Shown here one piece after another: positions 7,401-46,616 of a stretch of 64,000 nucleotides of DNA. The notes beneath the pieces are model-generated. The model ran no database searches, was not told the origin of the DNA, and saw nothing but the letters and a program-made list of their open reading frames with translations. This stretch comes from an uncultured Methanobrevibacter sp. (GTDB lineage Archaea; Methanobacteriota; Methanobacteria; Methanobacteriales; Methanobacteriaceae). Within the stretch, counting starts at the first letter, position 1. Each line of letters begins with the position of its first letter. The stretch lies in NCBI GenBank assembly GCA_900314635.1, contig OMVY01000003.1, forward strand, positions 124,001 to 188,000, written 5' to 3'. Position numbers and translations under genes: made by a program.

Positions 7401-8129
7401 ATGGATATTAATGAATGGGAAGAGTGGTATGTGGAAATACTTGATGATTTTGGTTTTTTAAGAAAAGATGATGAGAATACTGCAGATTTATTGAATGAAA
7501 TTCTTGAAAAGCATGGATTTTTAACTATCGATGAATTGTATGCCGATATGGAAGATAAGAAGAATGGAACAAGCAAGTTCATCGTATTTGGTGCAGGCCC
7601 TTCATTAAAAGAGAATATTAAAGATATCAAGGAATATGACTTGAACAAGTACATTCTCATAGCTGCTGATGGGGCCACTACCGCGCTTTTGGAAGAAGAC
7701 ATTGTTCCAGACATCATAGCAACTGATTTGGATGGAAAAGTGTCAGATTTGCTGACTGCAAATGCTGAAGGGTCTTATTTCATAATTCACGGCCATGGTA
7801 ACAACGAAGAAGCTATTAGTCTTTGGACGGATAGTTTTGACAAGATTCTTGGAACCACCCAATCCGTTCCTGTTGGACACCTTTACAATTTTGGAGGATT
7901 TACTGATGGGGATAGAGCCATGTTTTTAGCTATTGAACTTGGAGCGACAGAAATGGTTCTTGCAGGCATGGATTTCGGTACTGTGGTTACCAAATATTCC
8001 CGACCTAATATTGAAGGCGAGACAGGTCCTGCTGATGAGATTAAAACTAAGAAGCTTATTTATGCTGAAAGATTGTTGAATTGGATAATTGAAAACGAGG
8101 AAGTTGAGATTATTAATTTGGCTAAATGA
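7401..8129 (+). CDS. mptE: 6-hydroxymethyl-7,8-dihydropterin pyrophosphokinase, MptE type
   Basis: The 242-residue protein resembles the archaeal MptE (DUF115) family, which transfers diphosphate from ATP to 6-hydroxymethyl-7,8-dihydropterin on the way to tetrahydromethanopterin, the C1 carrier of methanogenesis. Recognisable segments are VFGAGPSLKENI (nucleotide-binding Gly-rich loop), AADGATTALLEE, PDIIATDLDG and the HGHGNN and GFTDGDRA loops. AGGTG stands about eight bases before the ATG. Length and motif order match family members. The acidic N-terminal 55 residues are helical and also usual. Confidence 0.87.
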   Translation: MDINEWEEWYVEILDDFGFLRKDDENTADLLNEILEKHGFLTIDELYADMEDKKNGTSKFIVFGAGPSLKENIKDIKEYDLNKYILIAADGATTALLEEDIVPDIIATDLDGKVSDLLTANAEGSYFIIHGHGNNEEAISLWTDSFDKILGTTQSVPVGHLYNFGGFTDGDRAMFLAIELGATEMVLAGMDFGTVVTKYSRPNIEGETGPADEIKTKKLIYAERLLNWIIENEEVEIINLAK

Positions 8130-8188
8130 GTTTTTTAACTTTTATTTTTAGCGAGGGGTGAGTTTTTATTAGTATTTTCAATAGATTT

Positions 8189-8440
8189 ATGAGTAAGGAT
8201 AAAAAGAGGGAGTATGTTAGGGAGCACCCCTATAAAGTTAAAGAGAAATTGATGGATATGAGATACCGCAGAGTGAAAGCTAATGCAAACAGAATGTCAA
8301 AAAAGGAACTCTGTGATATTATTCAAAAGAAAAAACTTGAAAAAGTCGATGATGGAGTGTATGTTAAAAAAACCTATGAAAATGGAATTGTAGTAAAAAT
8401 TGAAGAGTTAAGGTTTGAATATGACTTGGAGGATTTTTAA
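8189..8440 (+). CDS. small basic hypothetical protein, 83 aa
   Basis: I do not recognise this protein. It is highly charged (Lys/Arg/Glu), predicted soluble and probably helical at the start, ending in an acidic EYDLEDF tail. The ATG at 8189 has no adjacent ribosome-binding site. A strong GAGGGGTGA sits about 28 bases upstream. The frame stays open to an ATT at 8168, seven bases after that site, so translation may begin at the non-standard codon and add seven residues. It lies 60 bases downstream of mptE and may be co-transcribed with it. Confidence 0.6.
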   Translation: MSKDKKREYVREHPYKVKEKLMDMRYRRVKANANRMSKKELCDIIQKKKLEKVDDGVYVKKTYENGIVVKIEELRFEYDLEDF

Positions 8441-8585
8441 TTTTTTCATTGTTGAATGGATTTTTACACAAACTTATCTTAATGCTTTATATTGCAAAAA
8501 CAGCTTCTGGCATTCATTTTTTTAAAGCAATTAAACATGCATCTTCTTTTATTTTTTTAACTATTCTGATTTTTATTTAAACAAG

Positions 8586-8597
8586 TTTTTATATAAG
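8586..8597 (+). promoter_or_regulatory. TATA box of orc1/cdc6, implying a leaderless mRNA
   Basis: TTTTTATATAAG is centred about 25 bases before the orc1/cdc6 ATG at 8617. That is the usual archaeal TATA-to-transcription-start distance, and no ribosome-binding site lies between, so the transcript probably begins at or within a few bases of the start codon. Confidence 0.6.
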
Positions 8598-8616
8598 TAA
8601 ACATAAAATTATTCAT

Positions 8617-9735
8617 ATGGCAATAGAAGATATTTTGATGTTTGACGAGACAGTTTTTCAAAACATAAATGCATTTAATCCGGATTACATGCCTGCAAAC
8701 TATAACTTCAGGGATTCTCAAATGGAAGGAATGGCAATGTCCATCAGGCCTGCCATGAGAGGAGGACGCCCTACAAATTCAGTTGTGCTGGGCTCATGTG
8801 CTACCGGAAAGACAACTGCAGTTAAAAAAGTTTTTGAATTGGTCGAGCGAAACAGCGATAAGGTAATCTGCTGTTATATTAACTGTCAACTTCATACAAC
8901 TCGTTTTGGAATATTTTCTCAAATCCATAAGAAAATTTTCGGACATCAGCCTCCAGAAACAGGTGTTCCTTTCTCAAGAGTTTATGAAAAGGTTATCAAG
9001 CACTTGGTCAGCGAGGATAAGGCATTGATAGTCGCACTTGATGATGTGGACTATTTGTTCCAAAGTCAAAATGCCAATAAGGTCTTCTATGATATATTGA
9101 GAGCTTATGAGGAATTTCCAGGTGTAAGAACCGGAATTTTTGCCATTTTATCAGATCTGGAATTTAGATATGCTCTTGATAAGAATGTAAATACTGTTTT
9201 TATTCCTCAGGATATTGTGTTCCAACCTTATACTTATACAGAAATATTCAGCATTTTATCTGACAGAGCCAAGGCGGGATTCTTCCCTAATGTTATTTCA
9301 GATGAAGTCCTTGAAGAAATAGCCATGCACACTCTCGAAGTTGGAGATTTGAGAGTGGGAATCGACCTTTTAAGAGTCTGTGGAAATATTGCTGAAGCTA
9401 ATGCAAGCAAAACAATTAAATTGGAGTATGTTGAGGAAGCTATTGCCAAGCAGGGCTCAATTAATCTTACCAACATAATCAGTTCATTGAGTGATGTTGA
9501 GAGAACTTTGCTTCAAGTTATTGTGGACAGTGATGAGGTATACACATCCGGTGAATTGTCCAAGCAGTTCAAAGAGCAAGCAGGAGTTAGTTATGCTACA
9601 TTTAACAGGACTTTGGAAAAATTGGAGTTCCTGAGGCTTGTTGATACTAATTTCACTGGCAAGGGTGTTAGAGGCAATTCCCGAGAGATTATATTGAGAT
9701 TTTCACGTGAAGACTTTGAAAAGGCAGGTTTGTAG
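8617..9735 (+). CDS. cdc6: Orc1/Cdc6 replication initiator
   Basis: This AAA+ initiator binds origin-recognition boxes and loads MCM helicase. Walker A is GSCATGKTT (residues 59-67) and Walker B is LIVALDDVDYL with Asp141/Asp142. The lid region (GDLRVGIDLLRVCG) contains the sensor-2-type Arg. The C-terminal 90 residues form a winged-helix domain ending ILRFSREDFEKAGL. Length (372) is typical. No ribosome-binding site precedes the ATG and a TATA box is 25 bases upstream, suggesting leaderless translation. The repeat-rich spacer downstream, with one origin-box match, makes the neighbourhood a candidate replication origin. Confidence 0.93.
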   Translation: MAIEDILMFDETVFQNINAFNPDYMPANYNFRDSQMEGMAMSIRPAMRGGRPTNSVVLGSCATGKTTAVKKVFELVERNSDKVICCYINCQLHTTRFGIFSQIHKKIFGHQPPETGVPFSRVYEKVIKHLVSEDKALIVALDDVDYLFQSQNANKVFYDILRAYEEFPGVRTGIFAILSDLEFRYALDKNVNTVFIPQDIVFQPYTYTEIFSILSDRAKAGFFPNVISDEVLEEIAMHTLEVGDLRVGIDLLRVCGNIAEANASKTIKLEYVEEAIAKQGSINLTNIISSLSDVERTLLQVIVDSDEVYTSGELSKQFKEQAGVSYATFNRTLEKLEFLRLVDTNFTGKGVRGNSREIILRFSREDFEKAGL

Positions 9736-43365: not shown

Positions 43366-43986
43366 ATGATTAGAATAGCTTACTCGGATGTCAGTGATTT
43401 GGATTTGGTTAAAGGATATGAATTGGTTACCGATTCAAGAAAAGAAAAAATAGACAATTTTCGATTTGATAAGGATAAGAAATTAAGTTGTGGAGTGGAA
43501 CTCCTCTTAGTTAGATTATTGGCTGATATTGGCATAAATGATCCTGTTTTTAGCATAGATGAGTATGGAAAGCCTTATCTGTCTAATTACGCTGATGTTC
43601 ATTTCAACATGTCCCACAGTGGAAATCATATTGCTTGCGGAATATCAGACTATAAAATCGGATTGGATATTGAATATAATGACCTGGAGATTGATTTGGA
43701 TATTGCAAAACACTATTTTTTCAAAAGTGAATATCTCTCAATAATCAATGCCCGAAAACCATCCGATGAATTCTTCAGCTACTGGGTTTTAAAGGAAAGC
43801 TATATGAAATACACAGGGCTTGGATTTAGGCTGGACCTGGATTCATTTGAAGTAAGCAGGAATAAAGACAAGATAATCGGCAATGACAAGCTTGAGTTAA
43901 GTTTGTTTGATGTGGATGATTACAAGCTGGGTGTTGCTTCAAAATTCAAAGTGAAGGAAATAGAAAATATTGATTTGATTTTATAA
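43366..43986 (+). CDS. Sfp-type 4'-phosphopantetheinyl transferase
   Basis: The enzyme moves phosphopantetheine from CoA to a serine on a carrier protein. The motifs are complete: EYGKPYL, HFNMSHSG, GLDIEY with metal ligands Asp101 and Glu103, and YWVLKESYMKYTGLGF with Glu144. At 206 residues it is a short Sfp form. Archaea lack type II fatty-acid synthase, so the target is probably a peptide-synthetase-like carrier domain elsewhere in the genome; M. ruminantium is known to encode such synthetases. TGGAG precedes the ATG. The downstream amidotransferase starts 160 bases later. Confidence 0.92.
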   Translation: MIRIAYSDVSDLDLVKGYELVTDSRKEKIDNFRFDKDKKLSCGVELLLVRLLADIGINDPVFSIDEYGKPYLSNYADVHFNMSHSGNHIACGISDYKIGLDIEYNDLEIDLDIAKHYFFKSEYLSIINARKPSDEFFSYWVLKESYMKYTGLGFRLDLDSFEVSRNKDKIIGNDKLELSLFDVDDYKLGVASKFKVKEIENIDLIL

Positions 43987-44146: not shown

Positions 44147-44983
44147 ATGTGTGAATTGTTTGGATTTACATCTTCAAAAGAGGAAGATGTCACTGATTAC
44201 TTGAAGGCTTTTTACAGTCACTGTGAAGAGCATCCACATGGCTGGGGCTTGAGCATTCTGGATGAGAACCGTTCATGCCTTGTCAAGGAACCTGTAAAGG
44301 CAAGTAAAAGCGACCTTTTAAAAGAAATGCTCTCTTCAGGAATCCTTGGAAAAAACATTCTTGCACATATCAGATTTGCTACAATAGGAAAAATGGATAA
44401 GACCAACTGCCACCCATTTGCAAAAAAAGATAAATTTGGTCGCACATGGACCTTAATACACAACGGGACTATTTTTAACTGTCCTGAACTTTCCAAGTAT
44501 AATGATGTTGAATGCGGGGATACGGATTCTGAAAGAATAATCTGCTGCTTTGTCGATAAGATAAATGGGTTTGAAAAGGAATTGTCCATTGAGGAGCGTT
44601 TTAATTTTATAAATGTTATGGTTTCCCGCATGGCTGAGGGAAACAAGTTAAACTTTATGCTTTCTGACGGTGAACAGATTTTTGTTCATATCAATTGCCA
44701 AGGCCTATTGCATTATTTAAAAGATGAGCATTCCATCATCTTCTCAACCAAGCCATTGGATGATAATCTGTTCTGGTTCAACTTCCCTTTGAATACCTTG
44801 ATTAGTTTCAAGGATGGAAAAGTCTTGTTTAAAGGCGAATCCCATGGAAAAGAGTATATTCCAACTTGTGAACAACTATGGGCAGTATCTGATTTTATAT
44901 TGTCCATGCAAGATGATAATAGTGAAGGGGAATTGAATTTTGACAGGTCTGATTTGAAAAGCTTGAAATATAGATTCATATGA
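44147..44983 (+). CDS. class II glutamine amidotransferase (YafJ/EgtC/DUG3-like)
   Basis: The 278-residue Ntn-type amidohydrolase begins MCELFGF, so Cys2 becomes the N-terminal nucleophile. Other family motifs are HPHGWGLS, LAHIRFATIG, NCHPFA, IHNGTIFN and GDTDSE. It has no synthase domain. Stand-alone members hydrolyse gamma-glutamyl bonds: EgtC in ergothioneine synthesis and DUG3 in glutathione breakdown. GAGGAAG precedes the ATG. A glutamate-cysteine ligase gene starts 109 bases downstream in the same direction, which strongly suggests a gamma-glutamyl-thiol substrate. Confidence 0.88.
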   Translation: MCELFGFTSSKEEDVTDYLKAFYSHCEEHPHGWGLSILDENRSCLVKEPVKASKSDLLKEMLSSGILGKNILAHIRFATIGKMDKTNCHPFAKKDKFGRTWTLIHNGTIFNCPELSKYNDVECGDTDSERIICCFVDKINGFEKELSIEERFNFINVMVSRMAEGNKLNFMLSDGEQIFVHINCQGLLHYLKDEHSIIFSTKPLDDNLFWFNFPLNTLISFKDGKVLFKGESHGKEYIPTCEQLWAVSDFILSMQDDNSEGELNFDRSDLKSLKYRFI

Positions 44984-45092
44984 ATTTTAAATTCATATTT
45001 TGATTTTTTATGATTATTTCGCGAAATTGGTATGGATTTTAATAATTAAAAAATATAACTATTGTAATATTGTGATGCATCGAGGTAGAAAT

Positions 45093-46616
45093 ATGGCTGA
45101 TGATTTTGCTTTATCCGATATCAAGAAGATTGCTGGCGGAGAGGAACTGCTTGCAGGTAATTTTGGAATAGAAGTTGAAGGATTAAGGGTTACACATAAT
45201 GGCAAGCTGTCCCTTAGGCCTCATCCATCTATTTTTGGAAACAAGCTTACAAACCCGTATATTACAACAGATTTTTCAGAAAGCCAGGTGGAAATCATCA
45301 CACCTACTTTTGAAAGTATTGATGAAGCCTTTGACTTTTTTTCATTCATGTCTGATCTGGTTAATGTTTCCCTGGACAAGGATGAATACCTGTGGTTCCA
45401 GTCACTGCCTTGCATACTTCCTAAATCCTCAGACATTCCAATTGCCAGATATGAGGGGGATGAAAAGGCTCAGGAGTCAATGGATTACAGAAAAGGTCTT
45501 GCAAAAAAATACGGCCTTAGAAAACAATTGATTTCAGGAATCCACTTCAATTTCTCATTCTCTGAGGATTTTATTCAAAAATTATATGACAATTCATGTA
45601 GCGGAAAGTCCTTCAAGGATTTCAAGGATAATCTTTACTTGAAGGTTACAAGAAACTATTTAAGGCATTTATGGCTTATAGTCTACCTTACTGGTGCTTC
45701 TGTAGCCTGCCATAAGACATTCAATCATGAATGCGTTCGGCTGATGGACAGGCAAGGCAAATCCGGAAGCCTCTACACAAGTACGGGTTGTTCCCTTAGA
45801 AACTCTTCTTTTGGCTATAAAAACTTGAAAAAGCTCTACCCATCTTATAATTCAGTCAGGGAATTCACAGATGATGTTCAATCATATATTGATGAGGGAA
45901 TCCTATCTGAGGCAAAAGAACTTTATACTCAAATAAGGCTGAAGCCAAAAAATCCTCCAGATCTTTTGAATTCTCTAAATGAAGATGGCGTAAGGTATAT
46001 TGAAGTTCGAACCCTTGATATTAATCCATTTTATAAATGCGGTTTGATTAAAAAGGACATGGAGTTCATTCACCTGCTTCTTGTTTATTGTCTTTTAAAG
46101 GATGAATCAGACTATGTGAACTGGCAGAAAGAGTCATTAATCAATGAAGAACGGGTTGCTGTCAGCGCATTTGATCCGGATATGAGATTGCTGAAAGATG
46201 GTGAAGAGACAACCATAAATGAATGGGGCTTGGAAATCATTGACAGAATGAGAGTCGTGCTTGAAGAATTCGATATTGATTGCGATGGAATCCTTGACAA
46301 TATGGCTGACAAGATTCGCAATCCTTCAATAACTTATGCAAGGCAGATTGTCAAGCTGGTTGAAGAAAAAGGATTCATAAGGGCTCAAATGAGACTTGCC
46401 CGTTCAAATAAGATTACAAGCAATTATATTATCAATCAGACTGATTTGATTTATGATGACAAGTTTAAAAAGTATGTTCCGATTGCTCTTCCTGGATTGA
46501 AGGACACTTGTGCAACTGATGATGTATTTGCCGAGTTCAGAGGCACCAATCTCTGCAGTATAGAAGAAGAGCTCAGAAAGCTATCTGAAGAAGAGGATAG
46601 TTCAAAATCAGTTTGA
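45093..46616 (+). CDS. glutamate-cysteine ligase (GshA-type, GshF N-domain-like)
   Basis: The ligase couples Glu and Cys through the gamma-carboxyl using ATP. GNFGIEVEGLRVT near residue 22 gives the metal-binding acidic residues. SGIHFNFSF (about 149-156) and RYIEVRTLDINPF (about 302-313) are the other active-site signatures. It resembles the N-terminal half of bifunctional GshF but has no C-terminal ATP-grasp glutathione synthetase, so the product should be gamma-glutamylcysteine. GAGG six bases before the ATG at 45093 sets the start; an in-frame upstream extension of 31 residues is unsupported. Most methanogens lack such a gene, and acquisition from bacteria is likely. Confidence 0.88.
   Translation: MADDFALSDIKKIAGGEELLAGNFGIEVEGLRVTHNGKLSLRPHPSIFGNKLTNPYITTDFSESQVEIITPTFESIDEAFDFFSFMSDLVNVSLDKDEYLWFQSLPCILPKSSDIPIARYEGDEKAQESMDYRKGLAKKYGLRKQLISGIHFNFSFSEDFIQKLYDNSCSGKSFKDFKDNLYLKVTRNYLRHLWLIVYLTGASVACHKTFNHECVRLMDRQGKSGSLYTSTGCSLRNSSFGYKNLKKLYPSYNSVREFTDDVQSYIDEGILSEAKELYTQIRLKPKNPPDLLNSLNEDGVRYIEVRTLDINPFYKCGLIKKDMEFIHLLLVYCLLKDESDYVNWQKESLINEERVAVSAFDPDMRLLKDGEETTINEWGLEIIDRMRVVLEEFDIDCDGILDNMADKIRNPSITYARQIVKLVEEKGFIRAQMRLARSNKITSNYIINQTDLIYDDKFKKYVPIALPGLKDTCATDDVFAEFRGTNLCSIEEELRKLSEEEDSSKSV

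Follow-up and report, generated by a model that had tools for sequence, protein, structure and literature searches.

A candidate gamma-glutamyl-thiol gene module common to Methanobacteriaceae and anaerobic gut Clostridia

Why does a methanogen carry a glutamate-cysteine ligase (GCL) gene, gshA, behind a gene for a stand-alone class II amidotransferase (AT)? Such a pair is found in the window, i.e., the whole analysed stretch of 64,000 nucleotides from an uncultured Methanobrevibacter sp., and was originally predicted to be a two-gene unit of gamma-glutamyl-thiol metabolism. In our best reading, the window contains two members of a three-gene gamma-glutamyl-thiol module which is common to Methanobacteriaceae and anaerobic gut Clostridia; the third gene is designated MID here.

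The two genes of the window locus

The locus consists of the following features:

43366-43986, + strand: 4'-phosphopantetheinyl transferase gene upstream of AT (Pfam ACPS, E 1.4e-12)
44147-44983, + strand: AT, stand-alone class II (Ntn) amidotransferase, 278 aa (Pfam GATase_4, E 1.9e-36)
44984-45092, + strand: AT/GshA spacer, 109 bases, AT-rich; most relatives carry MID here
45093-46616, + strand: GshA, glutamate-cysteine ligase of the GshF N-terminal type, 507 aa (PF04262, E 8.1e-98)

This agrees in coordinates and strand with the original prediction of an amidotransferase with Cys2 and a GshA devoid of the GshB half, transcribed in the same direction and separated by 109 bases. The best start of GshA is ATG 45093 with a gaggtag ribosome-binding site ahead of it, while the open frame reaches back to TTG 45000. 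As the spacer holds a TATA-like stretch (about 45046-45056) together with this Shine-Dalgarno-like gaggtag, GshA may have a promoter of its own there. The phosphopantetheinyl transferase was rejected as a module member: none of the four relatives checked has an ORF of at least 60 aa at this site, and mru0514, a gene of this kind in M. ruminantium, is part of an NRPS-associated cluster (PMC2812497). It is probably a mere neighbour.

The window GshA has the PF04262 domain and keeps the metal, glutamate and cysteine binding residues of the E. coli enzyme. Counterparts of E. coli E27, E29, D60, E67, H150, and E328, which we take to be the metal ligands, are invariant in 21 module GshA proteins including that of the window. 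The same applies to the counterparts of R330 and of Y131, R235, Y241, and Y300, the latter four presumably forming the cysteine site (numbering according to the 1v4g alignment). That the window GshA makes gamma-glutamylcysteine (gamma-Glu-Cys) from glutamate, cysteine and ATP is therefore a prediction we regard as well supported by its sequence. Against the model of the bifunctional GshF (NF002688) it scores 415.6 bits with a cut-off of 425, and the match covers the GCL half only. The protein stops about 70 aa past the GCL domain, so the GshB half with its C-terminal ATP-grasp is missing. The GshF ATP-grasp marker PF18419 was found in none of the 19 genomes of the genus, while the positive control was detected; glutathione synthesis was rejected on this ground.

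AT has Cys2 straight after the initiator Met, and 24 AT homologues share invariant M1-C2, R76, N106-G107, and T126-D127, i.e., the glutamine-site residues and Cys2. The AlphaFold2 model of AT (pLDDT 87) has the class II (Ntn) amidotransferase fold, matching PurF and GlmS as well, with 1te5 and EgtC (4zfj, 4zfk, 4zfl) as the nearest solved structures. 1te5 is a predicted glutamine amidotransferase, and the EgtC structures were solved with a gamma-glutamyl substrate. AT is thus a candidate gamma-glutamyl amidohydrolase similar to EgtC, DUG3, or YafJ.

The classical ergothioneine route uses oxygen. It resembles our locus in pairing a gamma-Glu-Cys ligase (EgtA) with a class II amidohydrolase (EgtC) whose fold is close to that of AT. 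However, AT scores just 60.9 bits against the EgtC equivalog TIGR03442, far below the cut-off of 218.65, and the original prediction noted neither EgtB nor EgtD within the 64-kb window. The low score and the oxygen requirement both speak against ergothioneine synthesis. In yeast, DUG3 (with DUG2) is a stand-alone class II amidotransferase that cuts the gamma-glutamyl bond during glutathione breakdown (PMC9012958, PMC7617739). AT is likened to it by description, being a stand-alone class II amidotransferase too, but glutathione is not expected in the host of the window.

MID and its linkage to AT and GshA

The adjacency of AT and GshA was expected to be conserved across Methanobrevibacter. The linkage is indeed kept: of the 19 genomes of the genus, 12 have a full-length GshA, always with an AT close by and at the same locus, whereas the other seven have neither gene, save a GshA remnant in one of them (G018). 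Direct adjacency, as in the window, is an exception limited to three genomes of the genus. The usual order is S3Ae - AT - MID - GshA - NifX-like - CLC - TyrA - Pelota, with MID coding for a protein of about 466 aa. The unit is therefore usually one of three genes rather than the pair initially proposed. AT-GshA pairs lacking MID are also found in two C-S lyase operons (L277, L282) and in G015, where no MID match was obtained in a genome that is 87% complete; some genomes carry MID without GshA.

Archaeal MID proteins have no Pfam match, and they match the plant GCL model TIGR01436 weakly (42-65 bits, E 4e-18, cut-off 463). A profile search of PDB pointed to plant GCL as well (E 2e-13). The AlphaFold2 model of MID (pLDDT 78.5) has the plant-type GCL fold: plant GCL 2gwc is the best solved match (TM 0.76-0.81, about 20% identity), followed by YbdK. 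MID thus resembles the plant and alphaproteobacterial GCLs (TIGR01436, GCS2 superfamily) in fold, but differs from plant GCL in its low identity, its scores under the TIGR01436 cut-off and the position of archaeal members outside Pfam families. MID has an invariant E-x-E pair (E34, E36), and its C-terminal E-x-R (E337, R339) aligns with plant GCL. One bacterial MID does pass the GCS2 model PF04107 (37.4 bits, cut-off 21, E 2.4e-9). It is a part of a GshA-MID fusion seen in one genome of the order Lachnospirales (G422, L273), where AT adjoins a single uninterrupted frame of 880 aa. Residues 5-415 of the fusion correspond to GshA and residues 427-880 to MID, which is the layout of GshF with MID replacing GshB. 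Two loci (L135, L139) have two MID-like frames in tandem, representing either a duplication or a broken gene.

Within the phylum, MID is present in 78 of the 152 genomes, every one of them belonging to the family of the window. Among 139 Methanobacteriaceae genomes, GshA occurs in 85 and MID in 78, with 72 genomes carrying the two together (odds ratio 44, Fisher p 1e-18). The two genes are adjacent in 52 of the 62 Methanobacteriaceae genomes compared. In the order of Eubacterium oxidoreducens (295 genomes), GshA is found in seven of the nine genomes with MID and in 31 of the 286 without it (p 1e-5). The genomes behind both sets of counts are related, so the counts do not represent independent events.

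A scan of genome contigs returned 179 MID relatives, and the best 80 of these 179 were used for locus counts. These 80 come from Methanobrevibacter, Methanosphaera, Lachnospiraceae, Ruminococcus, other Clostridia (E. oxidoreducens DSM 3217 among them) and one Bacteroidales MAG. Among them, AT is located directly upstream of MID in 75 loci, and GshA completes the set in 59. A PF04262 gene is present in 33 of the 41 genomes reached via MID loci. The gene order varies: it is AT-MID-GshA in Methanobacteriaceae, mostly GshA-AT-MID in Clostridia and the Bacteroidales MAG, and MID-GshA-AT in one locus (L276). Plasmid spread of MID was also considered, but the search gave distant alphaproteobacterial GCLs only.

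The sole MID of the window genome (G000) is on another contig (C9, positions 7672-9069), where it immediately follows a second AT that is 42% identical to the window AT. This AT-MID pair (L045, 5443-9069) adjoins MoaE and MoeB/ThiF-like genes of the Methanobrevibacter_A type. In the trees, both C9 genes cluster with sequences of the Methanobrevibacter_A type, the window AT with those of the M. ruminantium type. The resident locus has therefore probably lost its MID, and the C9 pair is a second AT-MID copy. In composition, C9 resembles the window more closely than it does Methanobrevibacter_A-type loci; its E1-like (MoeB/ThiF-like) gene is of the Methanobrevibacter_A type, with a second such gene located on C19. 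C9 may be foreign, as a result of either horizontal transfer or mis-binning. In G003, MID is split into two overlapping frames (L048, 8589-10030), by a real frameshift or a sequencing error. Another genome (G002, L047/L115) was dismissed as a further example of a split module: its MID contig, C61, shares 96% of 25-mers with a contig of a Methanosphaera MAG (L117) and is probably mis-binned. These near-identical contigs, L115 and L117, occur in MAGs labelled M. olleyae and Methanosphaera stadtmanae, a probable case of cross-binning.

Ancestry of GshA and genomic context of the module

The GshA tree places archaeal GshA inside the group formed by the GCL halves of bifunctional GshF from Clostridia. 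The window GshA is thus similar to GshF (NF002688/TIGR01435) in its place inside the GCL-half clade and its retained active-site residues, but differs in the loss of the GshB half, with a GCL-fold protein, MID, in the place of GshB. GshA of the clostridial modules is on the far side of a 100/100 branch from the archaeal one, and a single clade of archaeal and clostridial module GshA is rejected (p-AU 0.011), and with it their joint descent. In the AT and MID trees, one branch parts archaea from bacteria in each. Judging from the trees, GshA was placed beside AT-MID at least twice, from separate lineages. Such repeated recruitment argues for a joint function of all three genes.

Bacterial modules have neighbours related to cysteine metabolism: CysK and an O-acetylhomoserine sulfhydrylase (above the cut-offs of TIGR01139 and TIGR01326, respectively), and a PatB-type C-S lyase with a cystathionine gamma-synthase-type enzyme. 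An Rrf2 regulator in the neighbourhood is closest to CymR, yet scores below the CymR cut-off. A MetQ-type NlpA lipoprotein, a rhodanese-PP-loop protein and a ThiF/TcdA-like protein are also encoded nearby. The neighbours of the archaeal modules are FdhD, a LarE-like PP-loop protein, MoeB/ThiF and NMT1-type binding proteins. Genes for glutathione peroxidase and flavodoxin adjoin AT-MID in Methanosphaera-type loci (L116, L118, L123) and GshA in a Clostridium-type genome (L288).

Two details of these neighbourhoods can be added. Two NMT1/SsuA-type binding-protein genes flank the module in Methanobrevibacter_A-type loci (L083, 4158-5093 and 9776-10747), and a rhodanese fused to a TtcA-like PP-loop domain is encoded near MID in a Clostridia operon (L140, 10679-11869).

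The possible role of the module

Residues and folds are conserved in GshA, AT, and MID, which suggests that each enzyme probably handles gamma-glutamyl chemistry. We lean slightly towards a model in which GshA makes gamma-Glu-Cys, AT removes gamma-glutamyl groups and MID acts as a second ligase together with GshA. In this scheme, GshA would join glutamate and cysteine at the expense of ATP. MID, judging from its fold, the gene order and the GshA-MID fusion, would perform another ATP-dependent ligation, either gamma-glutamyl or carboxylate-amine, on, or together with, the GshA product. AT, as an Ntn hydrolase resembling EgtC, would then cleave a gamma-glutamyl amide to release glutamate and a thiol amino acid or conjugate. 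The cycle would serve cysteine homeostasis and thiol-based defence, providing a compound that stores or carries cysteine, made while the amino acid is abundant and reopened later. In some hosts, it would probably feed an enzyme of the glutathione peroxidase type. The gamma-glutamyl-thiol module suggested originally thus stays the best reading in view of the GshA residues, the AT fold, the linkage and the cysteine context, although its third gene had been missed and its presence in Clostridia could not be seen from the window.

Several observations count against this reading. A ligase combined with its own hydrolase would constitute a futile cycle unless regulated. AT-GshA pairs without MID, MID without GshA, the frameshifted MID of G003, the possibly foreign origin of C9 and the single occurrence of the fusion do not favour it either. 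Furthermore, a 1985 survey, according to its citation in a later review, found neither glutathione nor gamma-Glu-Cys in five unidentified methanogens (cited in PMC7278568).

Other roles can be envisaged for the same genes. MID could couple gamma-Glu-Cys to an amine X, after which AT would strip the gamma-glutamyl group to leave a Cys-X thiol similar to mycothiol or bacillithiol, with glutamate acting as a protecting group. The GshA-MID fusion mirrors the GshAB architecture, archaeal GshA derives from GshF minus its GshB half and is now located beside MID, and EgtC, which AT resembles, takes a gamma-glutamyl group off a conjugate. However, this route would require activation of the cysteine carboxylate, and the known members of the GCL/glutamine synthetase fold activate the gamma-carboxylate of glutamate rather than that of cysteine. 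AT-GshA pairs also exist without MID and no gene that would produce X accompanies the module consistently, so we consider the route unlikely. It is likewise rather doubtful that the module maintains a plain gamma-Glu-Cys store with no further product, where MID would be an additional glutamate-cysteine ligase under different regulation and AT would free cysteine. The plant GCL fold of MID, the AT-GshA pairs that stand without it and the cysteine-regulon context are all compatible with such a store, but fused isoenzymes and their lasting co-occurrence would be odd, and MID has diverged from plant GCL (65 bits at best against the TIGR01436 cut-off).

AT could instead be a true glutamine amidotransferase supplying ammonia to MID, the two being subunits of a synthetase that makes an amide, e.g., of gamma-Glu-Cys or glutamate. 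Class II amidotransferases mostly serve synthetases, AT has the class II glutaminase residues and, among the best 80 of the 179 relatives, it mostly lies directly upstream of MID. On the other hand, AT is found beside GshA without MID (L277, L282) and is close to the stand-alone hydrolase EgtC, the other near fold, 1te5, fitting both readings. We regard ammonia feeding as quite improbable. The two window genes could finally be unrelated housekeeping genes that became neighbours by chance, as the 109-base gap and the possible separate promoter of GshA might suggest. Conserved linkage contradicts this: the genes are inherited in an all-or-none manner in the genus and recur in Clostridia in other orders, so a chance neighbourhood deserves hardly any credence.

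The GshA part of the module is already known. According to a 2020 review, Methanosphaera and M. ruminantium have GshA homologues in which the N-terminal ligase domain alone is conserved, while Methanobacterium has GshA/GshB-like pairs (PMC7278568). The haloarchaeal gamma-Glu-Cys system covered there is similar in being an archaeal gamma-Glu-Cys route without glutathione, but no AT or MID is described for it, and for Methanobrevibacter and Methanosphaera the review names GshA only. Our search of open-licence literature has found neither a description of AT or MID together with GshA nor any publication on the MID family. With less than even confidence, we put forward that AT-MID-GshA may constitute an undescribed pathway with a new ligase family, MID, making and recycling, via gamma-Glu-Cys, a low-molecular-weight thiol or cysteine conjugate, present in two domains (rumen methanogens and anaerobic gut Clostridia) and assembled at least twice with GshA of different lineages.

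To our knowledge, it is not settled which small thiol, if any, protects methanogens beyond CoM, CoB, and CoA, nor which one protects the numerous Clostridia devoid of glutathione, bacillithiol, and mycothiol. A module common to both groups and tied to cysteine and glutathione peroxidase genes offers a direct way into this question, and MID would represent a new ligase family. Among methanogens, the module is carried largely by species of the rumen, a group important for methane emission.
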